DNA of 36,659 bases from Acidimicrobiia bacterium (GCA_030066875.1 JASJAS010000029.1:1-36659); one strand, 5' to 3'. Counted from the stretch's first letter, positions 1,752-16,351 are shown. Notes: generated by a model from the letters alone, not told the origin. Numbers and translations are program-made.

Positions 1752-3134
1752 ATGTCCACGAATGCTGAGAAACGATCAAACCTGCCCCGATGGGCTACGG
1801 GGGCGACTGCCATAGTCGCGCTAGTCGCCGTTTCCGCGCTGGTTTTCAGCAACGCTCGCATCAGCTCCGCCAACCTCGAAGAAGCCACTGCACTACACGC
1901 CGCAGACATGACCCTGGCCGCTCAGGACGTTGCTCTCAAGTCCCTTGGGCAGGTTGCTTTGCTCGCTCAGGATCTCGAGACAGGTGTCGCCGCTCGAGAG
2001 ACCGTCGATGCAGCGGTCGCCGAAGCGGAAAGAGCCATGATCGAGTTTCGCAAGCGATCGGCGAATCTAGACGAAACAGTTGCGGGCAACCTGGCCGCGA
2101 CGCTCGATGCGTTCGACGAAGCAGCGACCGCGACCATCACCCTGGCGGCCGACGGCGACGGCGCTGGCGCTTCCGCTCAACTCGTTGACTCGGCTGTTCC
2201 CGCTGCAGAAGCACTCGCCGCCGACCTGATTGTCGAACGCGACGCCCGCGCCCTGGCGGTAGATGACGCGCAACGGCGCGTTGGTCGCTTTGCCCAGGTA
2301 GCCGGGTTCTTGGCGGCATTCCTCCTCCCCGTGGCTGCGATGGTCGCCTACCGCCGCTCGGTGCGGCGTCAGCTGGAAGCAGCAGAGACACATCTGGAGG
2401 CCCGCCTCGAATCCGAGAAGGCGATCGGCCGTGCCAAGGACCAGTTCATCGCAAACATTTCTCACGAGCTGCGAACCCCCCTCACCTCAATCTATGGCTT
2501 CTCCGAGGTCCTGCTCGATCAGGGCTTTGTCGACCCCAACACGGCCGAAGATCTCGTAAGTCTCATCAACAGCGAATCCGCCGAGCTCGCTCGCATGGTG
2601 GAGGATCTGTTGGTGGCGGCGCATGATGGAGCTTCGCCTCTGGCGATCGAAGCAACTGAAGTCTCGATCGGCGACGAGATCGAAGCGGTGATTGGCCCGT
2701 TCCGTCGTCGCGACATAGCCATCGGCGGCAACTATGCCGATGCCACCGTGTGGGGGGATCAGCTCCGGATCCGGCAGATCCTCCGGAACTTGCTAGCGAA
2801 CGCTGTCCAACATGGCGGCCCTACCATTCGCGTGTACGGCGACGTCGCCGGCTCGAGCTATGTGGTGTCGGTCGAGGACGATGGGGAGGGTGTGCCCGAA
2901 CATCTCGAGTCGCGCCTCTTCACGCGCTTCGTGCATCAAGGAGAGACTCCGCTCACCGCCGGCTCGATCGGGCTGGGCTTGGCGGTTGCCCGCTTGCTAG
3001 CGGATGCGATGGACGGCTCGCTCGAATACGAGCACATCACGGGCCGCACGAGTTTCGTCCTCAGGCTGCCACTCGTCGGGATTGTCGAGCCGGAGATGCG
3101 GTCAGACGAGGCCCTCGTCCCGACGACACAATGA
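1752..3134 (+). CDS. membrane sensor histidine kinase (orphan)
   Basis: A 460-residue sensor kinase. TM1 is at about residues 14-34 and TM2 at about 181-200; they bracket an alanine-rich, probably helical extracytoplasmic sensor of about 145 residues. A charged helical linker follows (about 200-228), then the HisKA box SHELRTPL with the phosphoacceptor His238. The ATPase domain shows the N box (NLLANAVQHG), G1 (DDGEGVP), F box (LFTRF) and G2 (GSIGLGLAVA). No HAMP domain is obvious. No response regulator gene lies in the window, so it is an orphan kinase whose partner must be elsewhere. The stop codon overlaps the start of the next gene by four bases (ATGA), which suggests translational coupling with the Ig-repeat membrane protein. 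No Shine-Dalgarno sequence is evident before the ATG. Confidence 0.92.
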   Translation: MSTNAEKRSNLPRWATGATAIVALVAVSALVFSNARISSANLEEATALHAADMTLAAQDVALKSLGQVALLAQDLETGVAARETVDAAVAEAERAMIEFRKRSANLDETVAGNLAATLDAFDEAATATITLAADGDGAGASAQLVDSAVPAAEALAADLIVERDARALAVDDAQRRVGRFAQVAGFLAAFLLPVAAMVAYRRSVRRQLEAAETHLEARLESEKAIGRAKDQFIANISHELRTPLTSIYGFSEVLLDQGFVDPNTAEDLVSLINSESAELARMVEDLLVAAHDGASPLAIEATEVSIGDEIEAVIGPFRRRDIAIGGNYADATVWGDQLRIRQILRNLLANAVQHGGPTIRVYGDVAGSSYVVSVEDDGEGVPEHLESRLFTRFVHQGETPLTAGSIGLGLAVARLLADAMDGSLEYEHITGRTSFVLRLPLVGIVEPEMRSDEALVPTTQ

Positions 3135-6100
3135 TTGCCGTTCGTCGTCGGGCCGCCATCGTCTCGGCCATTCTCTTGCTGGGAGTTGCCGCAGTCGCGC
3201 CTGCTTCTGCCGGCTCGGGCGAGACCGTCCGCGACGAATTCGATTCGATCGCGTTCGACGGCAATAACGGCTCTGTTGCTTGGTCGGATGACTGGCGCGA
3301 GCTGCCGTTCGGAGACGGCCCGGCTACCGGTCAGATTCAGGTTGTCACCGGCAGTAGGTGTGCCGCCACCAACTGTCTTCGTCTCGGTGACCAGGTGCTC
3401 GCGGCCGGGATTGCGCGGGAGGCTGACATGGCAGGTCACACCTCCGCGGCCCTCGCTTTCACCTATAGACGTGACCTGGTCGACGGAGATGGAGATCGCA
3501 ACGGCAAGATCAAACTCCGGGTGGGCACCAGCGTCTGGTCCTGGACCACACTCGCCACCTATCCGCTGACCACTAGTGACTCGAGCCCCGTGATGGAGAC
3601 CTTCGACATCTCCGATTACGCCGGTGCGCCGGTCTATGTGGGCTTCTTCGGCGAGGGATACCTCGACGGGCATTTCTATGTCGACGATGTCCAAATCACG
3701 ATGTCGTCGAACCGTGACCCGTTCTTCGAGGAGTCGATGCCGGACCGGCACGATGCCGAAGGCGACTGGATATCCATCACGCCCGAGGTCTCCGACCCGG
3801 ACTACGACGCGTTGTCCTTCGCCGCATCAGGCCTGCCCCAGGGAGTCTCGATCAACACGGATACCGGCACGATTTCGGGGGTGTTGGGCCGCGGTGCTGC
3901 ACAGTCTTCACCCTATGCAACGGTCGTCACAGCATCTGATGGCCTGGGAGGCCAAGACGCGGAGTCCTTCACGTGGACCGTTTCCGACGTCAATCGGCCT
4001 CCAGAACTCGATCCCATTTCGGATGCAGCGATTGGTGAGGGATCGCTGCTCAGCATCAGCACCGAGGCCATCGATCCTGACCTTCCCTTCGACTCTCTCG
4101 GATATGTCCTGACCGCAGCGCCCACCGGGGCCACGATCGACTCGCGCGGCAAGCTCACGTGGACGCCGGCAGAGTCCCATGGCCCCGGTTCGTACAACTT
4201 CTCAGTGAGAGTGATGGATTCAGGCGATCCGGCGCTCTCGGTGACTCGCTCGTTTGCCGTGACCGTGACTGAGGTCAACCGACCACCCACTCTTTCGGCC
4301 ATACCGGATCAGGCCAATGGTGCCGGCGACAGGGTTGCGCTGTCGGTGAACGCAGTCGATCCCGACGTGCCGGGCAACAGCCTTTCTTACTCCGCCACCG
4401 GCCTTCCCCCCGGCGTGTCGATCAGTGAGTCTTCCGGGGTGATCAGCGGCATCATCGCCGGGAGTGCCGCTCCTTCGAACAACACCGTGACGGTCACCGT
4501 GGTGGACGACGGTGCGCCGGGTCTGCAGGCAATGCAGACGTTCTCATGGCAAGTGACGGAGGGCAACCACGCCCCGGTGCTGAACCCGATTCCCGACCAG
4601 CAGCCGGGAACCAGTGGTGTGGTGAGCTTCACCGCAGCGGCCACCGACGCCGATTCCGGAGATAGCGTCACATTCTGGCTGGCCGACGGTATCGATCCCG
4701 TGCCGAGTGGAGCATCGATAGATGCCAAGACGGGGGAATTCTCCTGGAGTCCAGCCGATGACCAGCACGAAGCGACCTACCGCATCAACATTGGTGTGTC
4801 GGATTCGGGCTCACCGCGCCTGTCCGACACGCAGCTGGTGACGATCACCGTGCCGAAGCTGAATCAGGCACCGACCATTGTGAATCCCGGCGACCAAAGA
4901 TCAGCAGAAGGGGACGTTGTCTCGCTGCAGATCGAAGCCCAGGATGACAACAATCTGCGCTATCGCGCCATCGGTTTGCCCACCGGGCTCTCCGTCGACC
5001 CGGCGACCGGCCTGGTGACGGGGACCATTGACTACGAATCCGGCGGTGGTTCGCCGTACAGCGTCACGGTTGAAGCTACGGACGATGGTGCCCCGGCAAA
5101 GACCGGAAGCACTTCCTTTGTATGGACCGTCGCCGAGACGAATCGCCCACCTCAGGTGGATGAGATCACCGTTGTGGTCCTGGTGGGGCAGCCGAAACAG
5201 ATTCTGCTCACTGCTGATGACCCTGACGGGGACACATTGGCGTTCGAAGTAGTCGCCGGGCCTCAAGCTGGGTCGCTACAAGGCGAGGGGCCGGCATTCG
5301 TGTACACATCGCCGGGCGGCGCCGAGAGCGACTACATCCTTGTTCTCGTTAGCGACGGCGAACTGGAGACAGAGGCGGAGGTCGCCATTCAGATCCGGGC
5401 GAGCAACTTCGCACCCACCGCGGACGGCGATAGCTACGACCTTGCCGAAGGGGAATCGCTGCGAGTCGAGGCCCCCGGTGTGCTCGGCAACGATTCCGAC
5501 CTCGATGCCGATCCTCTCGTGGCCGAGCTGGTCTCACCCCCTGCCCACGGCCATTTGGAGCTGAACGAAGACGGTTCGTTCAGCTATGTCCCTGATGCCG
5601 GGTTCGCCGGCGGCGACAAATTCATCTACTCGGCGGTTGACGTTCTGGGCGAAGAGTCATCGGCCACCGTGATCCTCAACGTGGCCACGATCGAGGCGGC
5701 AATACCCCCGCCAATCGACGATGGGCCCCGCGATGCAATCGTTGCTGCCACAGATCTGCTGTGGCTCCCACCGCCAGCGAACGACGGATCATTCATCGAG
5801 GGTATCCCTCGGGCGATCGTGGCTGCGCTCAATCAGGGGATTACGACCTTGCCGGCGATGAGGTACACGCTGCTGCTACTCGCCATCGCCCTGCTTCTGG
5901 GTTTGACGTTCGGCCGGATCTCGGTCCTTCCCACGGGTGCCGGGAAGCACCAGGAGGATGGCTGGGTTCAGTCCTACGACCAGCCGTACGCCATCGGACG
6001 GATAGTGCCCGATGATGGCGAAGCGGAGGTGTTTGTCACCGGCCGGGCGCTGGAGAAGACTGATGAACTGGCCACGGGTCAACGAGTTCGGTTTGTCGCC

Positions 6101-6154
6101 GCCACGATCCGAGGGCGCCGGATCGCTCTCAAGGTCTGGCCGGTTGCCGACTAG
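3131..6154 (+). CDS. secreted Ig/cadherin-like repeat protein with TM helix and cytosolic cold-shock-like domain
   Basis: A 1007-residue single-pass membrane protein. A signal peptide covers about residues 1-27 (arginine-rich start, hydrophobic core, ASA-GS cleavage-like site). An N-terminal beta-sandwich-like region of about 200 residues follows. About five putative-Ig (He_PIG type) repeats share the pattern NRPP...DPD...LP.G..ID..TG..SG and are separated by TVxExNRPP linkers. After these come a degenerate repeat and one cadherin-like/Big_9 repeat (LGNDSDLDADPL...GSFSYVPDAGFAG). A hydrophobic helix lies at about 912-932. The last 60 residues (944-1005) resemble a cold-shock OB fold: GRIVPDDGEAEVFVTGRAL, then GQRVRF. 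The RNP1/RNP2 aromatic residues are largely lost. The start is the ATG overlapping the kinase stop; the frame is open further upstream, but that part is the shadow of the kinase gene. An adhesin or carbohydrate-binding sensor is possible; the function is unknown. Confidence 0.85.
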   Translation: MIAVRRRAAIVSAILLLGVAAVAPASAGSGETVRDEFDSIAFDGNNGSVAWSDDWRELPFGDGPATGQIQVVTGSRCAATNCLRLGDQVLAAGIAREADMAGHTSAALAFTYRRDLVDGDGDRNGKIKLRVGTSVWSWTTLATYPLTTSDSSPVMETFDISDYAGAPVYVGFFGEGYLDGHFYVDDVQITMSSNRDPFFEESMPDRHDAEGDWISITPEVSDPDYDALSFAASGLPQGVSINTDTGTISGVLGRGAAQSSPYATVVTASDGLGGQDAESFTWTVSDVNRPPELDPISDAAIGEGSLLSISTEAIDPDLPFDSLGYVLTAAPTGATIDSRGKLTWTPAESHGPGSYNFSVRVMDSGDPALSVTRSFAVTVTEVNRPPTLSAIPDQANGAGDRVALSVNAVDPDVPGNSLSYSATGLPPGVSISESSGVISGIIAGSAAPSNNTVTVTVVDDGAPGLQAMQTFSWQVTEGNHAPVLNPIPDQQPGTSGVVSFTAAATDADSGDSVTFWLADGIDPVPSGASIDAKTGEFSWSPADDQHEATYRINIGVSDSGSPRLSDTQLVTITVPKLNQAPTIVNPGDQRSAEGDVVSLQIEAQDDNNLRYRAIGLPTGLSVDPATGLVTGTIDYESGGGSPYSVTVEATDDGAPAKTGSTSFVWTVAETNRPPQVDEITVVVLVGQPKQILLTADDPDGDTLAFEVVAGPQAGSLQGEGPAFVYTSPGGAESDYILVLVSDGELETEAEVAIQIRASNFAPTADGDSYDLAEGESLRVEAPGVLGNDSDLDADPLVAELVSPPAHGHLELNEDGSFSYVPDAGFAGGDKFIYSAVDVLGEESSATVILNVATIEAAIPPPIDDGPRDAIVAATDLLWLPPPANDGSFIEGIPRAIVAALNQGITTLPAMRYTLLLLAIALLLGLTFGRISVLPTGAGKHQEDGWVQSYDQPYAIGRIVPDDGEAEVFVTGRALEKTDELATGQRVRFVAATIRGRRIALKVWPVAD

Positions 6155-6205: not shown

Positions 6206-7408
6206 TCACTCGGGGAGCAAGCGGAATCCAATCTGGTGGACATCGATACGCCCGATGGTGAACCCGGCTTCGCAGTACGCGAGGTAGTACTGCCATGTCC
6301 TGCGGAAGCGCTCATCGAATCCGCTGCGGGCGATCGTTGGCCACATCGCTTCGAAGCGGCGGCGCCATAGCCGGAGTGTCGTTGCGTAGCAGCTGCCGAA
6401 CCCGTCGACACTCGCTACCTGCAGGCTGTTATTCGCTGCCAGAGCATGCAACCCGGCCACCGTCGGCAATGCGCCACCAGGAAAGATGTGTTTGCTGATG
6501 AAGTCATCGCGACGCAGCAGGGACTCGAAGAGCTCGTCGGCAATGGTTATCGCCTGCATGGCTACCAATCCACCGGGGCGTAGCACGCGAGCGATCGTGC
6601 TGAACAACTCCGGCCACAGGCTCGCAGAAATCGATTCGATCATCTCGATGGACACGACCTTGTCGTATCGACCGTCTTCCTCCCGGAAGTCGATGAGCTT
6701 GATTTCCGTTCGGTCGTCGACTTTGGCGTGCTTGAGGCGATCTCTGGCGTACTCCGCTTGCTCGCTGCTGAGGGTGAGGCCGGTTACCCGGCAACCGATG
6801 GTGGTTGCGGCGTACTCTGCGAAGCCGCCCCAGCCGCAACCGATCTCGAGCACGTGATCATCAGCGGTGAGCCCGGCGAGCTCGGCAAGGCGCCGATACT
6901 TCTCTTCCTGGGCTGAGGAGAGCGGCTGGTCGTCTTCCGTGAAGACCGCCGACGAGTAGGTCATGGAAGGATCGAGCCATAGTTCGTAGAACTCATTGCC
7001 GAGGTTGTAGTGGCGGTCGATTGATTCGATCGCACCTCTTCGTCGGCTGGTGACACGCTGCCACAGCCGGCGGACCGGCTCGAGTAAGCGGTTCGGCCTT
7101 CCGACACGGACGTAGCTGTCGAGATTGCGACCTGCGTTCTCTAGTACCGACACCAGGTCAGTCGTGTCCCAGTCTCCCGCCAGGTATGCCTCGGCGAAGC
7201 CCACTCCGCCACCCATAGCGATCCGGCGTAGTGCTGCACCGGGCCGTACCAAGGTGATCGTCGCAGTCGGTCCCGGTTGGTCTCCGACCTGATGCAGCCG
7301 TTTGCCGTCGGGCAGTTCCAGGATGACGGTGCCGAACCGAACCCGCCGCTGCAGCCAGACCCAAACCAGCCTGCTGATCCAGTTCCCGATCGTTGTGAAC
7401 AGTCTCAT
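6206..7408 (-). CDS. ufaA1: UfaA1/Cfa-type SAM-dependent fatty-acid methyltransferase
   Basis: A 400-residue methyltransferase of the cyclopropane-fatty-acid synthase family, which modifies unsaturated acyl chains of membrane phospholipids using S-adenosylmethionine. Visible motifs are HYNLGNEFYELWLDPSMTYS (substrate entry), LEIGCGWGGFAEYA (SAM loop), VVSIEMIES, QAITI and FISKHIFPGG, and a C-terminal WQYYLAYCEAGFTIGRIDVHQ. Compared with E. coli Cfa, the EHVG and HTIG active-site segments are replaced by ESIS and AITI. As recalled, this pattern matches mycobacterial UfaA1 better than classical Cfa, so the product may be a methylated rather than a cyclopropanated chain. It is the last gene of an operon, and its start overlaps the DUF1365 stop by four bases. 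The same three-gene set occurs beside sigK in mycobacteria. Confidence 0.88.
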   Translation of the reverse strand: MRLFTTIGNWISRLVWVWLQRRVRFGTVILELPDGKRLHQVGDQPGPTATITLVRPGAALRRIAMGGGVGFAEAYLAGDWDTTDLVSVLENAGRNLDSYVRVGRPNRLLEPVRRLWQRVTSRRRGAIESIDRHYNLGNEFYELWLDPSMTYSSAVFTEDDQPLSSAQEEKYRRLAELAGLTADDHVLEIGCGWGGFAEYAATTIGCRVTGLTLSSEQAEYARDRLKHAKVDDRTEIKLIDFREEDGRYDKVVSIEMIESISASLWPELFSTIARVLRPGGLVAMQAITIADELFESLLRRDDFISKHIFPGGALPTVAGLHALAANNSLQVASVDGFGSCYATTLRLWRRRFEAMWPTIARSGFDERFRRTWQYYLAYCEAGFTIGRIDVHQIGFRLLPE

Positions 7409-8193
7409 GATGTGCCCTCAAAGGTACCCTCGAATCTGATGGCTGTGTCCGGCGGGTTCGGCACGGGCCGATACTTCGCACCCTTGAGGAGCAGGAGAAG
7501 GGCGTTCCAGTGGATGCCCCAAATCACCTTGGCAGTGAGCAGGGGGTGGGTGAGGAACAAGCGCACCAGATTCGCGTTCGTCAACGGCCTACGCTCCAGG
7601 TTCATGGTGGCGGTCATCATCTTGGTGCCTTCTACCGTGTAGTCGATCGACACGGAGAAACGTCGCCCTGGGGGTCGCAACGTAAACGAATACTCGCCCG
7701 TGCGATCGAAGAACGGCGATACGTGTAGTTCCTTCGCGAAGGAGTGGCGGAGGGGTTGGTTGGTGCTCGAGTCCACCGGGATCACATGGCTCAGACTGTG
7801 TCCAAAGGTGTTGTGAATCTCGTAGACCAGAGCGCGCAGCTCACCCGAGCTGTCTCGACAAAACCATATGGTTAGCGGATTGAACGAGTACCCCAGAATG
7901 CGGGGGAATGCCAGCAGTTGGACGGACCCACCCTCGAGTTCGATTCCTGCCTGCTGGAGCTGCGAGTCGATCCACGCCCGCAACGGAGAACCGTCGCGCG
8001 GACCGAAGTCACGGTCGTAGATAGAGAATATGTTCCACCGGTTGTAGCCAAGCAGGCTGGGCCGAGCCGTGGCGCGATCCAGGTCATCCAGGTCGAGAAG
8101 CAGCGAGTACGTCCTGTAGCGCAGCCGGTGGCCCATCGGTTGAACCCGACGGTGGCTCACCCGGCCGACGTAGACGGCGCTCGAGCCGGTCAT
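7405..8193 (-). CDS. DUF1365 family protein
   Basis: A 262-residue member of DUF1365, a family usually found between a FAD oxidoreductase and a Cfa-type methyltransferase. Characteristic segments are VYVGRVSHRRVQPMGHRLRY near the N-terminus, LLDLDDL, GYNRWNIFSIYDRDFGPRDG, RILGYSFNPLTIWFC, YEIHNTFGHSL and the C-terminal IHWNALLLLLKGAKY. Its biochemical role is not established; conserved clustering implies a part in modifying unsaturated acyl chains. The start chosen is the ATG at 8193, which overlaps the upstream stop by four bases and begins directly at family-conserved sequence. The open frame extends further upstream, but that arginine-rich part lies over the neighbouring gene. It is flanked on both sides by four-base overlaps, so the three proteins are probably made at similar levels. 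Confidence 0.88.
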   Translation of the reverse strand: MTGSSAVYVGRVSHRRVQPMGHRLRYRTYSLLLDLDDLDRATARPSLLGYNRWNIFSIYDRDFGPRDGSPLRAWIDSQLQQAGIELEGGSVQLLAFPRILGYSFNPLTIWFCRDSSGELRALVYEIHNTFGHSLSHVIPVDSSTNQPLRHSFAKELHVSPFFDRTGEYSFTLRPPGRRFSVSIDYTVEGTKMMTATMNLERRPLTNANLVRLFLTHPLLTAKVIWGIHWNALLLLLKGAKYRPVPNPPDTAIRFEGTFEGTS

Positions 8194-9515
8194 ACTGCGA
8201 TCTGTTCTCGGCGAGGGGCGGCCACGCGTGCGGCGGGACTCATTGGCCTCACCCGACCCGCCCAGGGTGCCGGCGAGCCAAGTTCGGCGGCGACGGTGAG
8301 GCCCGCCTGGAGCCCATCTTCGTGAAAGCCGTACCCGCAATAGGCGCCGGCGAACCATGTCCGGTTGCGACCCTGGATGATGCCGAGGTCTTTCTGTCCC
8401 TGTGCAGACCCGGCGTCGAATTGGGGGTGCTCGTAGAACACGTCGTCGATGACCAGTGCCGGGTCCGGCGACTCAGCTGGGTTGAGCGAAACGAAAACGT
8501 CGCGGCCAGCTGGAAGAGACTGCAGTCGGTTCATCCAGTACGTGACAGTGACCGGGTGCTGCGCTGCCGGGCCGACAGACCCGATGGCATTCCAGCTTGC
8601 CCAGGCGCCGCGGCGGCTAGGCATCAGCCGGGGATCGCCGTGCACGATGGCCCGATTGGTTGCGTAGCGGAAGGAACCCACAATGGCTCTCTCCTCGACG
8701 CTCGCTTCCGACCCGAGGATCTGGAGGGCACGGTTTGCATGAGTGGCGAACACAACGTGGTCGAACATCCTTCTGCCTCCGCGCGCGTCGACCACCATCA
8801 CATAGTCGAGAGTGCGGTTTACTTGCACGACTGGATGTCCGAGCAGGGTCTCATCAACACCGGAGATCGCCCGCTCGACGTATCTACGGCTCCCTCCATC
8901 TACCGTGCGCCACTGGGGTCGATCGTTGAGCCTGATCAGGCCGTGGTTGGAAAGGAAGTTGAGGAAGGTGCGAGCGGGCATGTCGGCAACGTCAGCGCCC
9001 GTTCCCGACCAGACTGCGGCTGCCAGCGGCAGCAGGTAATGGGAGGAGAAGGACTCCGGGTAGTCACGGGTCTGCAGGTATTGCGAAATCGAAATGTCGT
9101 CTGGCACCAGGCCCGAACGAAGCCGTGCCTGTTCTCCGCGAAACTCCTGGATGCCACGCAAGACCGACCACATGGCTGGTCGCAACAGGTTGCTCCTTTT
9201 AGCAAGTACGCCACCCACACTGCCTGCATACTCCAGTCCGGTTTCCGGATCACTCACGGAGAAGGACATATCGCTTGGCTTGGTCGCGACGCCCAGCATC
9301 GCGAAAAGCTCCGTCAGATTGGGGTAGTTGCGCTCGTTGTAGACGATGAATCCCGTATCCACAGGGATCGAACGGTCACCGAAGGCGACGTCGATCGTCC
9401 GGGCGTGACCGCCGGGTCGTGCCGCGGCCTCGTATAGGGTGACGTCGTGGTGTTGCTTCAGAGCCCAAGCGGCGCCGATGCCGGTCACACCTGACCCAAC
9501 TACTGCGATTCTCAT
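8190..9515 (-). CDS. FAD-dependent amine-oxidase-like oxidoreductase
   Basis: A 441-residue flavoprotein of the NAD/FAD-binding amine oxidase type (COG2907-like). The N-terminal dinucleotide fold is MRIAVVGSGVTGIGAAWALK, followed by LYEAAARPGGHARTI. VDTGFIVYNERNYPNLTELF is characteristic of this subfamily, and the C-terminal FAD-contact region is NRTWFAGAYCGYGFHEDGLQ. The ATG at 9515 is preferred over an upstream in-frame start because the Rossmann fold begins there and an AAGGA sequence lies just upstream. It probably acts with the DUF1365 protein and the methyltransferase on membrane acyl chains, perhaps introducing unsaturation or oxygen; this is inferred from gene clustering, not shown here. 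It is the first gene of the lipid operon. An ECF-type promoter candidate precedes it. Confidence 0.88.
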   Translation of the reverse strand: MRIAVVGSGVTGIGAAWALKQHHDVTLYEAAARPGGHARTIDVAFGDRSIPVDTGFIVYNERNYPNLTELFAMLGVATKPSDMSFSVSDPETGLEYAGSVGGVLAKRSNLLRPAMWSVLRGIQEFRGEQARLRSGLVPDDISISQYLQTRDYPESFSSHYLLPLAAAVWSGTGADVADMPARTFLNFLSNHGLIRLNDRPQWRTVDGGSRRYVERAISGVDETLLGHPVVQVNRTLDYVMVVDARGGRRMFDHVVFATHANRALQILGSEASVEERAIVGSFRYATNRAIVHGDPRLMPSRRGAWASWNAIGSVGPAAQHPVTVTYWMNRLQSLPAGRDVFVSLNPAESPDPALVIDDVFYEHPQFDAGSAQGQKDLGIIQGRNRTWFAGAYCGYGFHEDGLQAGLTVAAELGSPAPWAGRVRPMSPAARVAAPRREQIAV

Positions 9516-9541
9516 AGTTCCTTCTTGGAATGTCTGGTCGG

Positions 9542-9569
9542 TGTTCGACGCAGCGCGGCAACTTGGATC
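9542..9569 (-). promoter_or_regulatory. candidate ECF-sigma promoter for the lipid operon
   Basis: On the minus strand, GATCC is followed after 17 bases by CGAACA (9547-9542). A start site about 7 bases further would give a leader of about 20 bases carrying the AAGGA ribosome site of the FAD oxidoreductase gene. The opposite strand of the same intergenic region holds a matching pair for the divergent gene. The pattern resembles the published SigK-type consensus as I recall it (CCATCC and CCGAAT), so it may be read by the sigma factor encoded nearby. Confidence 0.5.
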
Positions 9570-9579
9570 GGTGTGGCTC

Positions 9580-9606
9580 AATCCATCCTGTCGCACGCAG
9601 CGAACA
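9580..9606 (+). promoter_or_regulatory. candidate ECF-sigma promoter for the SRPBCC gene
   Basis: AATCC (9580-9584) is followed after 16 bases by CGAACA (9601-9606) on the plus strand. A start site near 9613 would leave a short leader with AAGGA at 9619-9623 before the ATG at 9632. This mirrors the element driving the opposite operon, with the same CGAACA hexamer and nearly the same spacing. A CCATCC at 9583-9588 also occurs but is too close to CGAACA to be its partner. Confidence 0.5.
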
Positions 9607-9631
9607 AGTCATATAGACAAGGAATGGATTG

Positions 9632-10081
9632 ATGATTCGTCTTACTGAAACTGCATCTACAACCCTGCCCCGTGAGGTCGCCTTCGAACACATCGGTGAC
9701 TTCGCCAACGTCGAGAAGTGGGATCCCGGTGTCGTCTCGGCGGCCAAGTCGACCTCAGGTGACGTTCGCGTGGGCACCGCCTACGACCTTGTGATTTCGT
9801 ACGGAGGTCGCGAGATGGCAATGACTTACGTCGTCACCGATTACATGCCCGGTCGGAAGATCGTCCTCGAAGGCAACGGATCCAGAGTCAAGGCCGTTGA
9901 TGTCATTGACTTCATCGACGAGGGAACCGGGACCTTGGTGACCTATACAGCCGATCTCTCTCTCAAGGGTCTGGGCAGGTTGGTCGAGCCGCTTCTCAAG
10001 GCGCGACTCTCCAAGGTAGGAACGGATGCAGGAGAGGGAATGCGCCGTTGGTTGACCGAACTGGAAGTGGCCCGCAACTAG
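9632..10081 (+). CDS. SRPBCC (START-like) family protein
   Basis: A 149-residue protein of the SRPBCC/polyketide-cyclase fold, a helix-grip domain with a deep hydrophobic cavity that often binds lipids or polyketides. The start has the typical form (TETASTTLPREVAFEHIGDFANVEKWDPGV), followed by alternating strands (YDLVISYGGREMAMTYVV, GTLVTYTADLSLKG) and a long C-terminal helix with several lysines and arginines. The ATG at 9632 is chosen over the TTG just before it because AAGGA lies 8 bases upstream. The gene diverges from the lipid operon, and its stop overlaps the convergent short-chain dehydrogenase stop by four bases. It may bind or carry a product of the lipid pathway, which is inference from position. 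Confidence 0.8.
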   Translation: MIRLTETASTTLPREVAFEHIGDFANVEKWDPGVVSAAKSTSGDVRVGTAYDLVISYGGREMAMTYVVTDYMPGRKIVLEGNGSRVKAVDVIDFIDEGTGTLVTYTADLSLKGLGRLVEPLLKARLSKVGTDAGEGMRRWLTELEVARN

Positions 10082-11058
10082 ATCCGGGCGACGGTCGACT
10101 CGAGTTGTTCCCAGAGAAGGCCCCTGTCGGAAGCTGTTTCTACAGTGCGCTTGAAGCGGTGCTCGGGACGGGGCAAGCGGTCGTGCCACAGCTTGCCGGT
10201 CTCGGTGGCCGGAGTCGCGGCGGTCGCCAGCCATAGAATTGTGTCCGCCCCCTGGCTCACGTCGCGCAGGAAGGGGCCCATCACCTTGTGGAAGGTGGGG
10301 ATGGAGGTTTCGACCCCCGGAGTGTTGACCCAGCCCGGGTGTGTCGCATTGGCGGTCACGTTGCCGGATCGCAGTTGTTCCGCCCAGAGCTTCGTGAGGA
10401 TCATCAAGCCGCGCTTGGCGCGGGCGTATGCGATGGTTCCCCGATATTCGCCTTCCTCGTAGTTGAGATCGTCGAGTCGCAGACCTTCTGCGTACATACC
10501 ACCGGAGATCACATTGATGATCCGCGCCGGCTGTGACTCGAGCATCCGCGGGACGAGGTGATTCGTGAGCACGAATGGGGCGACGAGGTTCGTGGCGTGA
10601 GCGAGTTCGAGTCCTTCATCGGTGACAATTCGCTCAGGTGGCAGGACCACCGCGTTGTTTATGAGCCGGTGAATCGCCGGCTCGGTGTCTGCGATCTCGG
10701 CTGCAACTCTGCGGACCTCGCGAACCAGAGACAGGTCGGCGAGGTAATACGAGATGTCGGCGTTGCCCGTCGACGAGATGAGATCATGTCGAAGCGTCTC
10801 CGCCTTGCCCTCATTACGGGCAACAAAACGGAGTCCGGCGCCATACCCTGCTAGCTGCCTTGCCACCTCGGTCCCGATGCCCGAAGTGGCCCCGGTCATC
10901 ACGACGGTCTTGCCGGCGACAGCGGACCCGTCGATCGGCTCCCAACCTCTGGATCGGACCTTGTGACCGATGGAGGTGAAGCTCCCGACGATCGTCTTCT
11001 CCAAGAGCCCATCCCAACGGCTGATGGAGTTGGATTCGGAGCTGGTCTTGCTAGGCAT
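10078..11058 (-). CDS. short-chain dehydrogenase/reductase
   Basis: A 326-residue NAD(P)-dependent oxidoreductase of the classical SDR fold. The coenzyme loop is TGATSGIG (about residues 55-62). NNAVV is seen where NNAG is usual, the serine region is INVISGGM, and the catalytic YxxxK is YARAK, followed by HPGWVNTPGV. The length and the N-terminal extension of about 45 residues resemble the retinol-dehydrogenase/DHRS-like subgroup. The substrate is unknown; a lipid-derived alcohol, ketone or aldehyde would suit the setting. Its start codon overlaps the anti-sigma stop by eight bases, so it is the third gene of the sigma operon and is probably translationally coupled. SDR genes also occur in light-induced clusters of other bacteria. 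Confidence 0.87.
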   Translation of the reverse strand: MPSKTSSESNSISRWDGLLEKTIVGSFTSIGHKVRSRGWEPIDGSAVAGKTVVMTGATSGIGTEVARQLAGYGAGLRFVARNEGKAETLRHDLISSTGNADISYYLADLSLVREVRRVAAEIADTEPAIHRLINNAVVLPPERIVTDEGLELAHATNLVAPFVLTNHLVPRMLESQPARIINVISGGMYAEGLRLDDLNYEEGEYRGTIAYARAKRGLMILTKLWAEQLRSGNVTANATHPGWVNTPGVETSIPTFHKVMGPFLRDVSQGADTILWLATAATPATETGKLWHDRLPRPEHRFKRTVETASDRGLLWEQLESTVARI

Positions 11059-11755
11059 CGCGCAGCCAGAGGGCTACCGGGTCGTTCTCGGAAACGGCAA
11101 CGCCGCCCGCCACCTCTTCGCTGATCGCCATCCCGGCGATGTTACCTTCGGCGCGGAACTGAACCACGTCGGGATCGTTACCGAGCAAAGCTGCAGAGAC
11201 GATTTCATCTCCGACGATGACCCAGAGTTGATAGGTGCGATCCTCGGCCAACGCGGGAAGCGAGTCGACGGCCAGATAGCCGTTGCCCTCGGCATCGAGG
11301 ACCGCAGAAGCAGCAATCGTGCTGGTGTCTGCAGGATCGGACATCTCGATGGTGACGGCCGCTTGATCCTGCGCAGCAGCTGCCAGTTCGGCCAGGCTGG
11401 GCTGCGAATTGGTGAAGTAGGAACCTGCTGCAACCCCGACTATGAGTGCCGCGGCGACCGATGCAATCGTGTACAGGAAGCCCCGTCCCCTTCTGCGGAT
11501 GGGCGCGATCTGCGGCTCGGCCTCCGGCACGCGGGGCTCCAGACCCGCTTCCGCGACGATGCGCTCCCAAATGGCGGGAGGCGCAACCGGGACGATATCG
11601 GGCAAGCCGTCCACCAACTCGGTGGCAACGCGACGAAACGAATCCGTGTGGTCGCGCAGGTACGGGTCGCCCTTGACCAACTGGTCGAATTGCGCCGCTT
11701 CATCCGCGGGCAGGGCGTTGATCGCCCTGGCAGCCGCGCTATCGATATTCTTCAT
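11051..11755 (-). CDS. rskA: RskA-type anti-sigma factor
   Basis: A 234-residue membrane-bound anti-sigma factor. The cytosolic N-terminal part (about 1-90) has the ALPADEAAQFDQLVKGDP pattern of anti-sigma domains that clamp a partner ECF sigma factor. One transmembrane helix lies at about 93-114. The extracytoplasmic domain (about 118-234) has the RskA features DRTYQLWVIVGDEIVSAALL and VAVSENDPVALW. It starts two bases after the sigma stop, the usual sigma/anti-sigma order. In mycobacteria RskA is cut by regulated proteolysis and restrains SigK under non-reducing conditions; whether this one senses redox is unknown. No HCxxC zinc motif is seen, so it is not of the ChrR zinc-binding class. 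Confidence 0.88.
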   Translation of the reverse strand: MKNIDSAAARAINALPADEAAQFDQLVKGDPYLRDHTDSFRRVATELVDGLPDIVPVAPPAIWERIVAEAGLEPRVPEAEPQIAPIRRRGRGFLYTIASVAAALIVGVAAGSYFTNSQPSLAELAAAAQDQAAVTIEMSDPADTSTIAASAVLDAEGNGYLAVDSLPALAEDRTYQLWVIVGDEIVSAALLGNDPDVVQFRAEGNIAGMAISEEVAGGVAVSENDPVALWLRDA

Positions 11756-11757
11756 GG

Positions 11758-12381
11758 TTACGCGATTCCGATCAGTTCCGTTCCGAGCGATTCGCGCAGC
11801 TTCGCCAATCCCGACCGTATACGGCTCTTCACTGTGCCCTCGGGGACTCCGAGAACGTCGGCGACTTTGCGGTACGAGTAGCCCATGTAGAAGGCCATGG
11901 CGATCGGTTCGCGCTCCGTTTCCTTGAGCTGGTAGAGCGCTGTGCGCACCCGCTCGGAGGTGATTCGCTTCATTGCCTCTTCTTCGGGGCTGGGCTGATA
12001 GTCGGATGACAGACGCTCATTTGCGATTTCTCGCTTGTTGCGGGCTTCCTCGGAACGGATCAGGTCGACGCTGCGACCGTGGGCATCGAGCTGGAGAAAC
12101 GAGCTCAAGGCACCTCGCTCCGGGTCGTAACGCTCGGGGCGCTTCCAGAGACGGACAAAGACCTCCTGGGTGATGTCCTGCGCGAGTTCTTCCCGGCGGA
12201 GGAGTCCGTAGGCCACCCGGTAGACCCGGTGACCATATTGGCCGTACGCCTCACTGAGCGCCCCCGGATCCTGCGCAACGAGCCGGGCGGCCAGGGCTGC
12301 ATCTTCAGCGCGGATGGTGCCGGCGGGGCTTTCGGTTGTTGCGACTCTTTCCAGTGTCTGTGTTGCTGCCAAGGTTGACAT
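11758..12381 (-). CDS. sigK: ECF RNA polymerase sigma factor, SigK-like
   Basis: A 207-residue extracytoplasmic-function sigma factor. Region 2 is AYGQYGHRVYRVAYGLLRR...AQDITQEVFVRLWKRPERYDP, and region 4 is AFYMGYSYRKVADVLGVPEG followed by TVKSRIRSGLAKLR, with the recognition helix in the latter part. Region 3 is absent, as expected for this class. The ATG at 12381 is chosen because GGAGGGA lies at good distance upstream and a housekeeping-type promoter sits just before it; a longer in-frame reading would run through that promoter. It heads an operon with its anti-sigma factor and a dehydrogenase. The SigK assignment rests on the RskA partner and the ufaA1-DUF1365-FAD oxidoreductase neighbours. 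An equally fair comparison is the LitS/CarQ-type sigma factors next to B12 light regulators. Confidence 0.87.
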   Translation of the reverse strand: MSTLAATQTLERVATTESPAGTIRAEDAALAARLVAQDPGALSEAYGQYGHRVYRVAYGLLRREELAQDITQEVFVRLWKRPERYDPERGALSSFLQLDAHGRSVDLIRSEEARNKREIANERLSSDYQPSPEEEAMKRITSERVRTALYQLKETEREPIAMAFYMGYSYRKVADVLGVPEGTVKSRIRSGLAKLRESLGTELIGIA

Positions 12382-12401
12382 TCTTCCCTCCAGGTGAAGA
12401 T

Positions 12402-12438
12402 TTAGTACTAAATTAGATCCTAGCTCTGGATTTGTCAA
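12402..12438 (-). promoter_or_regulatory. housekeeping-type promoter of the sigma operon with palindromic operator candidate
   Basis: On the minus strand TTGACA (12438-12433) is followed by exactly 17 bases and TAATTT (12415-12410), close to the primary sigma consensus. The perfect palindrome TTAGTACTAA (12402-12411) covers the end of the -10 box and the expected start site, a classical repressor position. The sequence GTACTAAAT within it recurs as GTGCTAAAT at 12509-12517, just before the divergent B12 regulator. This suggests a shared operator for that regulator. Confidence 0.6.
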
Positions 12439-12508
12439 GAGATAAATGTGGACAAGGGTCTTCTTGGCATTTGACAATGGGCAAACGACTGGCAATGTCG
12501 CGCATTAT

Positions 12509-12525
12509 GTGCTAAATATATGGTC
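12509..12525 (+). promoter_or_regulatory. start region of the B12 regulator, possible leaderless promoter and operator half
   Basis: No Shine-Dalgarno sequence precedes the regulator gene. The -10-like TAAATA (12513-12518) lies seven bases before the ATG at 12526, compatible with a leaderless transcript, although its last base is A rather than T. The overlapping GTGCTAAAT resembles part of the palindrome before the sigma gene, so autoregulation is plausible. Confidence 0.35.
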
Positions 12526-13344
12526 ATGCCCGCTGAACATCTGACTCTCAATGAGGTCGCCGAAGAGCTCGACGTCCACTACATGACCGTCTATCGCTAT
12601 GTGCGTCTCGGTCACCTGCCGGCCCACAAGGAAGGCGGGTCCTGGCGTGTGTTGAAGTCCGATGTGGACGCACTACGCAAGGAACCGCCCGCGGCTGGGC
12701 GACGCGGGCATCCTTCGACCCCCTGGAATGAGCGGCTCCTTCAGCGCTTGATGGCGGCGGACCAGGCCGGAGCCTGGAGCGTGGTTGAAGCCGCCCAGGC
12801 CTCCGGAATGCCGCTGCGCGCGATCTACCTCGAAATGGTGATTCCTTCGCTGCGAAAGGTCGGGGAGGAGTGGCACAACGGCAACATCTCAGTTGCAGAG
12901 GAGCATGCGGCGTCCCAGATCGTCACCCGGATCGTGTCCCGGCTCTCCGCACAGGTCGGCAAGAGAGGTGTCTCCAAAGGAATGGTGGTCCTGGGCACCA
13001 CCGCTCACGAATTACACGGCCTTCCGGTCATGCTCGCCGCTGATCTCATCCGGATCGAAGGTTTCGAAGTACTCGATCTGGGAAGCAACCTGCCGGCCGA
13101 CGCATTTGCTGAGATAGCTGAGAGACAACAACGGTTGGTCGCCGTAGGGGTGAGCGTGACCACGCCGGGGCAGGCAGAGACGGTCGCTGAGACCATATCT
13201 GCGTTGCGGGAAAGGGTGGACGTACCGATCTTCCTCGGTGGCGGTGCAATCGACGGTGACGAGCACGCTCGGCTCCTGGGGGCCGATGGTGGAACTCCTC
13301 GCGTAGAGGACATGGTTCCGAAGCTGCTCGAGCTCGTTGCCTAA
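12526..13344 (+). CDS. carH: CarH/LitR-like B12-binding photoreceptor regulator with excisionase-type HTH
   Basis: A 272-residue regulator. Residues 5-53 form a short winged-helix DNA-binding domain of the excisionase/HTH_17 type (LTLNEVAEELDVHYMTVYRY...GSWRV) rather than the usual longer MerR head. Residues 66-145 form the helical B12 cap, and 150-272 the Rossmann-like cobalamin domain. The photoreceptor signature W-x9-EH is present (Trp116, Glu126, His127). His117 follows the Trp, as His132 follows Trp131 in Thermus CarH, where it binds cobalt after light exposure. The lower-ligand motif is ELHGLP (His164), with Pro replacing the usual Gly. In the CarH family, adenosylcobalamin in the dark gives a DNA-bound tetramer, and light breaks it up. 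The gene diverges from the sigma gene. An alternative ATG lies six bases upstream. Confidence 0.85.
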   Translation: MPAEHLTLNEVAEELDVHYMTVYRYVRLGHLPAHKEGGSWRVLKSDVDALRKEPPAAGRRGHPSTPWNERLLQRLMAADQAGAWSVVEAAQASGMPLRAIYLEMVIPSLRKVGEEWHNGNISVAEEHAASQIVTRIVSRLSAQVGKRGVSKGMVVLGTTAHELHGLPVMLAADLIRIEGFEVLDLGSNLPADAFAEIAERQQRLVAVGVSVTTPGQAETVAETISALRERVDVPIFLGGGAIDGDEHARLLGADGGTPRVEDMVPKLLELVA

Positions 13345-14012
13345 CTGAGTCCTGCCGCCATCTGACGGAACGACTCGAGCCCCTGCTGCAGCGCTTCGGC
13401 AAGCGCGGCGAGTTCTGTTTCTGCGATATCGATGACGATCGGCACGTCCAGATTCACCGGAACCTCGGTTTGAATGGGAATTGTCTCGTTAACCGGAATC
13501 GCCACATCCAAATCGATAGGAAGGTCGAGTTGGATGGGCACTGTTATGTCCAGCGGAATGTCGATGCCGAATGGGCCATTCACGGTGATCGTGGTGTCGA
13601 TGGTCTCATCGATGGGCAGGGTTGTCTGAATGGGCACATCAAGCGTGCGGTCGAGTACGACCTGGGTGTCGATCGGCACCGTTTCGTTGATGGCCACGTC
13701 AAAGGTGATCTGAGATGTCCGGAAGGTCTCGATCCCGACAACGGCCTCGCTGAGCGCCGAGTCGAGTGTTGGGCCCAGCGAGCCTAACTGTTGCTGGAAA
13801 GCGGTGATTTGAGCCGCATACAGGGCGGCACCGCCTTCGACACGGGACATGTCCTCGACCAGCTGGGTACGCTCTGCTGCGGCCTCCTCTAGATCCGATG
13901 AGAGAGACGAGATCCGCACAGCCATGAGGATGGTCGCAACCAGCAGCGCAAAGACCACGGCAGCCGTCGCAACGACGATGGCACTCAGGTGACGGACGAT
14001 GAATTGTTTCAT
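13341..14012 (-). other. possible internal start giving the C-terminal repeat module alone
   Basis: Within the fused MFS gene an ATG at 14012 is preceded five bases upstream by AAGGGGG, a strong ribosome site. Initiation here would give a separate 223-residue protein starting MKQFIVRHL: a TM helix, a coiled coil and the VPI-type strand repeats. The frame is open through the junction, so both a fusion and a free form are possible. In an ancestor these may have been two adjacent genes. Confidence 0.5.
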
Positions 14013-15638
14013 GGGCACCCCCTTGGCTGCCGTGGGATTGGTCGACTGACCGGACTTGGTTGAATCTTGCAGAGCATCCGATTGCTGTAGGGCGCTGTGG
14101 TCCTGCGGCGAACCTCGTCCGGGTCTCGTATCACGCTCTCGTGGAGTGCGTCGCATCAGCAACGCAACGAACCAGGCGATGACGACGAGGACACCGGCGG
14201 CGACGAAGGTCTCGGCAAGCGACGCCGTCGTCAATTCTGCCGAGGCCTCTGCCGCCAGCTGGGCGTAATCAGGATCGGTGAGCGCCGGCAGATCGATCTC
14301 CTTGCGAAGCTGGTTGAAGCGGTGCAAACCCCATGCCGTGAGGCCCGACAGACCAACGGACAGCCCCATGAGACGAAGCACCATGACCAGACTTGCCGCC
14401 GTGCCACGACGGTCCGCCGGGGCCGCATCGACGACGGCCGCGGTGGTTGGCGCCATGACCAGGCCGAATCCCGCGCCGAGTACGGCGAGCTGCAGAGCCA
14501 TCGCTGGATAGGCCGTCATCACATCCCACCCGAAACCCATCGCAAAGAAGCCGGCTGCAGACATGCCGAGCCCGATCAACACCGGGGGCCGGTACCACCT
14601 GCTCTCGGTAATCCGTCCCCCCAGGTAGGAAGCTACCGACATCGATGCCGTGAGCGCGCTGAGCACCCATCCCGTGATCACTGCAGCCCGTTCCAGGTCC
14701 ACCTCGACGACATTGATGAACAGGGGAACGTCCACCATCGCGATCACAAGCGTTGCTCCGACGAAGAAGTTGACCGTAACCGCCGCCACCAGGTTGCGTC
14801 CCCTGAACAGACCGGGATCGATCAGCGGGTATTCGGTCCGCCGCTGCGTGTACACAAAGGCCACACCGGCGGCTAGCGCAACCGGGTACAGCCACACGAG
14901 CCCGGCTCCCGTGCCACCGGTGAGTTCTTCGAGACCGGTGACGCTCTGAATCTCGGCTGCCCCGAGCAGAGCCAGGTTCAAAGCGACAAGCGCGGTTGTC
15001 AACAGTGCCGCCCCGGTCCAGTCGATCCGGGCGGCCCGCTGCTCTTCGGTGGAATCGCTCAGCACATACCAGGCGGCGACGATGCCGAGAATCGCCAGCG
15101 GGATGTTGAAGTAGAACTGCCAGCGCCACGCAAGGAAGCGAATGATCATCGCCCCATACAGCGGTCCCCATACCCAGCCGAGGGTATCCACAGCACCAAG
15201 GACGCCCAGGGCCCGGGCTCGCTTACCTTCGACGTAGGCATCGCTCACCGCCGCCATGCCGATCGGCACCAGCGCTCCGCCTCCCATCGCGGTGAGCACC
15301 CGCCCAAACAGAAAGGGACCGAGCGTGTTGGTCATGGGGATGATGATCGAACCGATGAGGAAGAGGGTGAGGGCTCCGATATACACCCGGCGCCGGCCCA
15401 GCACGTCGCTCAGCCTTCCCATGAAGGGCATCACAGACACGTACGCGATCAGGTAGGCGTTGACTATCCACGCGGCGTCGTCGAGCCCGTCGGGCAACAC
15501 CAGACCCAGGTCGCTGATGATCGGACGCAGCATTGTTGTCACGACGGTGAGGTCGTCGGCGGCAATGAAGACCCCAAATGCAACCACGATCAAGACGGTC
15601 CTTGGTGAAGCCTCTCGCCGGGTTGCTAGCAAAGTCAA
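13341..15638 (-). CDS. P55-like MFS lipid/drug exporter fused to a TM-anchored strand-repeat domain
   Basis: A 765-residue protein. Residues about 10-490 are a 14-helix MFS transporter of the DHA2/P55 type: DDLTVVTTMLRPI in helix 1, the loop motif GRLSDVLGRRRVYIGAL, then GPLYGAMI. A polar linker (about 495-542) precedes a second module at about 543-765: one transmembrane helix, a short coiled coil, then about 100 residues of alternating hydrophobic strands with VPIQT, LPIDE and VPVNL repeats, and a final helix. The upstream lipoprotein resembles LprG, and lprG-p55 is the mycobacterial operon that exports triacylated lipids and glycolipids. The preferred start is the TTG at 15638, which overlaps the lipoprotein stop as TTGA; another TTG lies at 15632. 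The stop overlaps that of the convergent B12 regulator. Confidence 0.82.
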   Translation of the reverse strand: MTLLATRREASPRTVLIVVAFGVFIAADDLTVVTTMLRPIISDLGLVLPDGLDDAAWIVNAYLIAYVSVMPFMGRLSDVLGRRRVYIGALTLFLIGSIIIPMTNTLGPFLFGRVLTAMGGGALVPIGMAAVSDAYVEGKRARALGVLGAVDTLGWVWGPLYGAMIIRFLAWRWQFYFNIPLAILGIVAAWYVLSDSTEEQRAARIDWTGAALLTTALVALNLALLGAAEIQSVTGLEELTGGTGAGLVWLYPVALAAGVAFVYTQRRTEYPLIDPGLFRGRNLVAAVTVNFFVGATLVIAMVDVPLFINVVEVDLERAAVITGWVLSALTASMSVASYLGGRITESRWYRPPVLIGLGMSAAGFFAMGFGWDVMTAYPAMALQLAVLGAGFGLVMAPTTAAVVDAAPADRRGTAASLVMVLRLMGLSVGLSGLTAWGLHRFNQLRKEIDLPALTDPDYAQLAAEASAELTTASLAETFVAAGVLVVIAWFVALLMRRTPRERDTRPGRGSPQDHSALQQSDALQDSTKSGQSTNPTAAKGVPMKQFIVRHLSAIVVATAAVVFALLVATILMAVRISSLSSDLEEAAAERTQLVEDMSRVEGGAALYAAQITAFQQQLGSLGPTLDSALSEAVVGIETFRTSQITFDVAINETVPIDTQVVLDRTLDVPIQTTLPIDETIDTTITVNGPFGIDIPLDITVPIQLDLPIDLDVAIPVNETIPIQTEVPVNLDVPIVIDIAETELAALAEALQQGLESFRQMAAGLS

Positions 15639-16351
15639 CTCTCGATGTCGGGGGCTGAGATTTCGACAGGTTCTCCGAATTCGGTGAATTCGATGTACCA
15701 ATCACTTGTTTGACCCTCGTGGACGGTGGAGAGTTCCGCTTCGCGCACATACCCGGTGGTCGGTTCGATCCACATGTCCAATTCGACCGGCTGTCTCCGG
15801 ATGAGCCCGGCCAGTATCACCGCCACCCGGTCTTGGTCTGCCTGGGCTCGAATGTGATAGCGGGGTTGGTCATTCCTGGTGACTTCCCCCACCCATACGA
15901 CGTCGTCCAAACCCTCCGCAAGAAGCGGTCGCCAGCCCAGTTCCGGGTCGAAGAGCGTGGCCGGGTTGAAGTCGTAACCTTCCGGGGCGTTCTCCCACTC
16001 GCCCGTAATCGGGTTGGTGAGCCAGGTTGTGCCGTCGATGGCAATAGCCCCGATCTGGGCATTGATGTTCCCTACGGCCAGGGTGACCACGGCGTTGGCC
16101 GAACTCGGGGCAGCGAACTGTCCCTCTGCGATCGAGAAGTTCAGTGTGTCGAGCGGGTCGATGTAGACGGGTGCGCCAGAACGCTCGATCCGGAAACGCA
16201 CGTAGTCGACCGACCCCATCGCGGCCGACGAGGCCTCGAGCACGGAGTCGGAATCGGGAGGCAATGTCGATGCCGATGTATTGCCGCCACCACATGATCC
16301 GGTCACCAGCGCGAGGACGACGAGAGCGACCAAGCGGCGGGCAGGCTTCAT
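15635..16351 (-). CDS. lprG: LprG/LppX-like lipoprotein
   Basis: A 238-residue lipoprotein. The signal peptide ends in a slightly atypical lipobox TGSC, after which a Gly/Ser/Thr-rich tether begins. The mature part follows the LppX_LprAFG pattern: IAIDGTTWLTNPITGEW, FNPATLFDPELGWRPLLAEG, a central ligand-cavity region, VELDMWIEPTTGYVREAEL and the terminal FGEPVEISAP. In mycobacteria LprG binds triacylated glycolipids or triacylglycerol and hands them on in cooperation with the MFS protein P55. Here an MFS exporter of the same type follows directly, with a four-base overlap. The ATG at 16351 is chosen because TATCGT lies exactly seven bases upstream, the arrangement expected for a leaderless transcript; a GTG at 16360 is the alternative. 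Confidence 0.85.
   Translation of the reverse strand: MKPARRLVALVVLALVTGSCGGGNTSASTLPPDSDSVLEASSAAMGSVDYVRFRIERSGAPVYIDPLDTLNFSIAEGQFAAPSSANAVVTLAVGNINAQIGAIAIDGTTWLTNPITGEWENAPEGYDFNPATLFDPELGWRPLLAEGLDDVVWVGEVTRNDQPRYHIRAQADQDRVAVILAGLIRRQPVELDMWIEPTTGYVREAELSTVHEGQTSDWYIEFTEFGEPVEISAPDIES

Follow-up and report, generated by a model that had tools for sequence, protein, structure and literature searches.

The stretch analysed here, called the window in the following, comprises 36,659 nucleotides from an Acidimicrobiia bacterium (GCA_030066875.1, JASJAS010000029.1). It is one contig of a metagenome-assembled genome (MAG) of 3.16 Mb and 81% completeness; among the close relatives of this genome, those with names are Acidimicrobiia MAGs. 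Between positions 6206 and 13344 it holds genes for an extracytoplasmic function (ECF) sigma factor resembling SigK, an RskA-type membrane anti-sigma factor, a short-chain dehydrogenase/reductase (SDR), an SRPBCC protein, an FAD oxidoreductase, a DUF1365 protein and a cyclopropane fatty acid (CFA) synthase, and, divergent from the sigma gene, the gene for a B12-binding regulator (Table 1). All genes that an earlier note on this DNA had named were recovered in their places with Pfam and NCBIfam. The best match of the sigma factor in the PDB is SigK of Mycobacterium tuberculosis (4NQW). As far as genome comparison can tell, the arrangement is real, conserved and, within the literature searched, undescribed: a CarH-like, non-MerR B12 regulator placed over a SigK/RskA pair. 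Our literature search, which covered few subscription journals, found no paper joining a B12 regulator to SigK/RskA or describing HTH_17-B12 repressors, and none on Acidimicrobiia with B12 photoreceptors. We consider it probable that the locus represents a light-operated, B12-based switch above a stress sigma factor of the SigK/RskA type, and the sequence comparisons described below suggest that light is a natural trigger of the SigK/RskA stress switch.

Table 1 Features of the locus and related genes. Positions refer to the window unless another stretch is named.
Feature	Position	Strand	Evidence or remark
CFA synthase/UfaA1-type methyltransferase	6206-7408	-	PF02353, 264 bits
DUF1365 protein, Rv0448c type	7405-8193	-	PF07103, 255 bits
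FAD/NAD-binding amine-oxidase-family protein, Rv0449c type	8190-9515	-	PF01593, PF13450
Candidate sigma-K-type promoter CAATCC-N16-CGAA	9579-9604	+	50 bases 5' of SRPBCC gene
SRPBCC (polyketide cyclase/lipid transport type) protein	9629-10081	+	PF10604; inside minus-strand block
SDR	10078-11058	-	PF00106
RskA-type membrane anti-sigma factor	11051-11755	-	PF10099, 3.6e-14; NF052375, 98.7 bits (cut-off 100)
ECF sigma factor, SigK-like	11758-12381	-	best NCBIfam match SigK, 141 bits (below cut-off of 226 bits)
Putative operator TTTAGTACTAAA, perfect palindrome over -10 of sigK promoter	12401-12412	no strand	sequence reading, alignment of relatives
Housekeeping-type sigK promoter TTGACA-N17-TAATTT	12410-12438	-	-35 at 12433-12438, -10 at 12410-12415; sequence reading
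Second, imperfect putative operator TTATGTGCTAAAT	12505-12517	no strand	2 mismatches; directly 5' of regulator start codon
B12-binding regulator	12520-13344	+	Pfam HTH_17, four-helix B12-binding_2, Rossmann B12-binding; divergent from sigma gene
Heliorhodopsin gene, L268	11310-12086		
Heliorhodopsin gene, L271	11196-11972		
Heliorhodopsin gene, G000:C111	15411-16130		

The -35 and -10 elements of the sigK promoter are kept in most of the relatives aligned. The palindrome over the -10 element, in its general form TTTAGYRCTAAA, is a candidate operator of the B12 regulator. The position of the second copy is likewise conserved in relatives, where it reads TTTTGTGCTAAAT, and autoregulation of the regulator through this site appears likely. 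A weight matrix placed the site at sigK in every one of the 16 loci that have the regulator close by and detected none in the 7-20 kb searched in each of 15 sigma loci lacking a linked regulator (Fisher p=3.3e-9). Sigma loci (225 kb) contain 18 near-perfect sites and sigma-less lipid loci (185 kb) another 11 (29 in 0.41 Mb), compared with none in 1.28 Mb of controls made up of DUF1365, regulator-less sigma, MerR-LitR and mutasome loci. The palindrome could in principle be bound by a third, unlinked regulator, with the B12 protein working elsewhere. This is highly improbable, because the palindrome tracks the regulator across 31 sigma loci, is absent from the controls and in many loci also lies directly upstream of the regulator gene itself.

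A scan across some 85,000 species genomes retrieved 292 stretches that encode relatives of the regulator. Among 60 relatives compared, 22 possess the regulator, 31 a sigma factor of this type and 20 both (Fisher p=2.9e-6). Of these 20, 16 have regulator and sigma genes as neighbours; about 5.6 kb separates the two in L060. Within the genus (five relatives), the block is retained in full as regulator-sigK-rskA-SDR-SRPBCC-FAD-DUF1365-CFA, and its parts persist in shuffled order in other genera (L058, L060, L061, L074). The sigma gene is followed by that for an RskA_C anti-sigma factor in the same order in relatives. The loci are not all independent, as the regulators of two genomes of the genus, L053 and L056, are nearly identical. 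The linkage for which the earlier note had proposed a search thus holds within the genus and extends to other genera and families (co-occurrence in 20 of 22 genomes). Judged from these comparisons, the arrangement is not due to chance, and the proposed wiring of the regulator to sigK-rskA and the lipid genes is supported both by linkage and by the presence of an operator where repression would be expected. A different view would make the regulator a mere neighbour that acts on the adjoining major facilitator superfamily (MFS) gene or on itself, leaving sigK under the control of RskA and membrane signals only, as in mycobacteria. RskA is indeed present, and as 11 of the 38 relatives without the regulator retain the sigma factor, the latter can function without it. 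Nevertheless, we hold this to be quite improbable in view of the conserved operator over the sigK -10 element, which is missing wherever the regulator is unlinked, and of its further occurrence on lipid promoters in loci that lack the sigma factor.

The latter loci deserve a closer description. In 9 of 13 sigma-less regulator loci, the operator resides in the FAD/SRPBCC or FAD/SDR promoter, a position occupied in none of seven sigma-bearing loci (p=0.005). Because the operator lies on the lipid promoter without the sigma factor and at sigK with it, we propose two wirings of one circuit, in which the repressor would control the lipid genes either directly or through the sigma factor. Three groups are resolved in the regulator tree, one linked to the sigma factor, one linked to lipid genes without it and one linked to a mutasome. 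As this tree is unrooted, it is compatible with insertion as well as with loss of the sigma factor. Members of the third group (L080, L081, L096, L099, L101 and others) adjoin an imuA'-imuB-NUDIX-dnaE2 translesion mutasome and a divergent acyl-CoA dehydrogenase gene. Control of imuA-imuB-dnaE2 by the regulator was considered and is not claimed, because imuA is equipped with a LexA-type box of its own (CGAAC-N4-GTTCG) and the palindromic operator is absent. DNA photolyase genes adjoin members of the regulator family in L062 and L124.

Elsewhere in the genome that contains the window, the operator recurs at genes reminiscent of the mycobacterial SigK regulon. There are three perfect copies, one at sigK, one at the gene for a fasciclin lipoprotein of the MPT70/83 type (L198) and one at that for a secreted DUF4397 protein (L199), and a fourth site with one mismatch precedes the gene for a DUF4397-SLH protein (L200). 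Each of the sites at L198, L199 and L200 touches a CATCC-N16/17-CGWA element oriented with the gene, for which the probability by chance is about 0.002 per site. Elements of the same type are located upstream of the SRPBCC gene in the window (in the CAATCC form), in L060 and L074 upstream of FAD and fasciclin genes and, in genomes without the regulator, upstream of DUF4397 genes that diverge from the sigma gene. Beyond this match, the FAD/SRPBCC promoters of the genus show no clear consensus motif. The element resembles the mycobacterial SigK promoter, CCATCC...CCGAAT, and the fasciclin proteins encoded by mpt70 and mpt83 are the best-known SigK targets. We infer that genes with the CATCC-N16/17-CGWA element are served by the SigK-like sigma factor. 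As the fasciclin and DUF4397 genes carry both operator and sigma-type promoter, the regulator may also control them directly. In M. kansasii, light induces the fasciclin genes mpk70/83, which are putative SigK targets (PMC9861118). In the regulator-less relatives L267-L270, the DUF4397 promoter 5' of the sigma gene keeps its CATCC element, and beside it lies TATCACTAAG, which resembles a decayed operator half-site. Heliorhodopsin genes adjoin the gene for the SigK-like sigma factor in regulator-less relatives, often with CATCC-N16/17-CGWA upstream.

The regulator is not a LitR/CarH protein proper, because a helix-turn-helix (HTH) domain of the HTH_17/excisionase type (PF12728, E=1.8e-13) takes the place of the MerR domain. 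Pfam yielded no MerR match for it, whereas the MerR-LitR control L217 does give MerR_1, and its NCBIfam CarH score is 75 bits against a cut-off of 400. Simple membership in CarH/LitR was therefore ruled out, and the earlier description of the regulator as CarH-type applies to its B12 domain, as judged by structure match and residues, and not to its HTH. The CarH-type residues are all present. With the ATG at 12520 taken as the start, they are W118, H119, E128, H129 and H166; the numbers reported previously (116, 117, 126, 127 and 164) were two too low because the count had begun at the second Met. An AlphaFold model built from 30 homologues (mean pLDDT 93) finds its best PDB matches in full-length Thermus thermophilus CarH with adenosylcobalamin (AdoCbl) and DNA (5c8e/5c8f), in photocobilins, one of them from an Acidimicrobiaceae bacterium, and in CtMerR. 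W118, E128, H129, the lower-ligand residue His166 and G188/P192 are invariant in alignments of 22 and 30 homologues, and GxxW-x9-EH occurs in all 81 homologues examined. The published signature of light-responsive B12 domains (SignatureFinder) consists of the motifs GxxW, EH, GxxH and GxxxP (PMC11796333), three of which are found in the window regulator, namely GxxW (G115/W118), EH (E128/H129) and GxxxP (G188/P192). None of the six further B12-domain proteins encoded in the genome has GxxW-x9-EH, and all six resemble ordinary corrinoid carriers. A CobO/BtuR adenosyltransferase is encoded in the genome. We take the regulator to be a CarH-like, non-MerR B12 protein that presumably binds AdoCbl and responds to light.

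Several points weigh against a light switch at this locus. The fourth signature motif, GxxH, is altered in the window regulator (HELH, His for Gly) and in its genus (Thr for Gly); the contact at this position is made by the main chain, and the Gly is kept by most of the wider family. In T. thermophilus CarH, H132 forms the bis-His light state. An equivalent residue is present in only 10 of the 81 homologues; the window regulator has it. These features would fit a regulator that binds AdoCbl and represses the SigK locus in a B12-dependent manner, reading B12 supply or redox state instead of light. We regard this as unlikely, since GxxW, EH and GxxxP are intact, the nearest structures are photoreceptors and not enzymes, and the targets (CFA/FAD/SDR, fasciclin and, in other loci, photolyase genes) match light-induced sets elsewhere (PMC9758184, PMC9861118). 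A further point against the light switch is that the HTH differs from that of CarH, so the binding mode and even the sign of regulation are predictions. In addition, RskA adds a second gate on the sigma factor with a signal of its own. The case for heliorhodopsin as a sigma target is weak: a candidate promoter was found in 11 of 23 genomes with the sigma factor and in none of 7 without it (p=0.03), and the heliorhodopsin gene of the window genome lacks a strict CATCC-N16/17-CGWA element. Also note that the weight matrix behind the count of 16 out of 16 was trained partly on the same sites, whereas the near-perfect sites were counted without it, and that the loci compared are related by descent.

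A light-operated switch can nevertheless be outlined in steps. It starts from the domains, the ligand residues, the conserved linkage, the conserved operator and the dependence of the latter on the regulator neighbourhood, all of which are shown by sequence. In the dark, an AdoCbl-bound oligomer of the regulator would occupy the operator over the -10 element of sigK, holding sigma-K, RskA and the SDR low, and would probably repress its own gene as well. Light would break the Co-C bond, the oligomer would disassemble and the sigK operon would be transcribed. RskA, as a membrane anti-sigma factor, would form a second gate on SigK. Once freed, SigK would transcribe the genes with CATCC-N16/17-CGWA promoters, i.e., the SRPBCC/FAD/DUF1365/CFA module, the fasciclin lipoprotein and the secreted DUF4397 proteins. 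With regulator and sigma factor acting on the same fasciclin and DUF4397 genes, a coherent feed-forward loop is possible. The products probably alter acyl chains and envelope against singlet oxygen.

Parts of this arrangement are known from other systems. With CarH/LitR (class I LitR), the window regulator shares the C-terminal four-helix and Rossmann B12 domain with W, E, H and H ligand residues, the location next to its target and an operator over a sigma-70-type target promoter, and the known targets of that family include ECF sigma, CFA, FAD and SDR genes. It differs by HTH_17, the replaced Gly of GxxH and the palindromic operator. The combination of LitR with a CFA/FAD/SDR module is already known from Pseudomonas, where LitR-linked SDR/FAD/ufaM genes are light-inducible (PMC9758184). 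There, too, the repressor (PplR/PmlR) adjoins SDR, FAD oxidoreductase and ufaM-type lipid genes and acts at a sigma-70-type promoter; however, Pseudomonas LitR is of class II, has an incomplete B12 domain, is driven by a LOV protein and lacks a sigma layer (PMC9758184). Rhodobacter RpoE-ChrR is likewise an ECF sigma/anti-sigma pair and drives CFA and furan-fatty-acid genes in light stress, but its signal passes through proteolysis of the anti-sigma factor and no B12 repressor is involved (PMC7074977, PMC7380195). While the photooxidative RpoE/ChrR pair of R. capsulatus resembles SigK/RskA (PMC7074977), ChrR of R. sphaeroides is not RskA-like (PMC7074977, PMC7380195). In Nesterenkonia, ultraviolet light lowers RskA (PMC8965627). 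The mycobacterial locus consists of sigK, rskA, Rv0446c, ufaA1, Rv0448c and Rv0449c and has mpt70/mpt83 in its regulon. The window likewise unites a SigK-like sigma factor, an RskA-type anti-sigma factor, CFA/UfaA1, DUF1365 and FAD oxidoreductase genes, and its predicted regulon contains a fasciclin protein and a CATCC...CG-type promoter. Unlike the mycobacterial locus, it adds the B12 regulator, SDR and SRPBCC genes, lacks an Rv0446c-type gene in the block and has a sigma factor of a separate clade. In the window, sigK has a housekeeping-type promoter with an operator, whereas mycobacterial sigK is autoregulated via the Rv0449c promoter (PMC7509140).

That the SigK locus and LitR/LitS circuits share an origin, as suggested in the earlier note, is not borne out by the trees, in which the window sigma factor falls into a clade of its own; the regulator, moreover, is non-MerR. 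Regulator-linked sigma factors form one clade (support 100/98), the sister clade of which (99/99) comprises mycobacterial SigK and the sigma factors of a genus with 7-10-Mb genomes; one sigma factor of that genus is encoded near a MerR-LitR gene plus the same lipid genes (L217, L222). Sigma factors next to MerR-LitR genes in this other genus, which stand in for the named LitS, fall outside the clade of the window sigma factor. A single clade of SigK and the window sigma factors is not rejected (p-AU 0.18), and a common ancestral light-responsive sigma factor is possible. One could go further and picture SigK/RskA as originally a light (photo-oxidative) sigma system that non-MerR B12 repressors control in Acidimicrobiia. 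The sigma factor would have been inserted into, or lost from, a circuit leading from repressor to lipid operon, with operators moving accordingly, and mycobacteria would have lost the photoreceptor and kept the regulon. We offer this scenario tentatively and consider it rather doubtful as a whole; if true, it would explain both the light induction of mpk70/83 and the SigK signal.

Two further genes flank the block. Convergent with the regulator gene is an open reading frame for an MFS (DHA2) transporter (window positions 13341-15701, 786 codons) with a membrane-anchored Thr/Ile/Pro-rich extension at its C-terminus, kept as a single long frame across the genus. The CFA gene adjoins a long gene for a surface protein with cadherin/He_PIG repeats (2750-6154), which has a weak C-terminal match to a cold-shock domain. 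Some MAGs in the comparison (L068, L077, L121 and L074, L127) bear titles, among them Bifidobacterium breve, Armatimonadetes and Chloroflexi, that are at odds with their acidimicrobial-type regulator and lipid genes, and some may be mislabelled.

In the tuberculosis complex, the abundance of major antigens is determined by SigK-RskA. The signal to which this pair responds has been described as unknown (PMC7509140). In an environmental relative of the SigK locus, an apparent sensor is now joined by a defined operator, and the regulon predicted there mirrors that of mycobacteria; "light or singlet oxygen" therefore becomes directly testable as the SigK signal. With the regulator family, B12 photoreceptors would gain one more scaffold outside the MerR type, and the two proposed wirings illustrate how a sigma factor may enter or leave a circuit.

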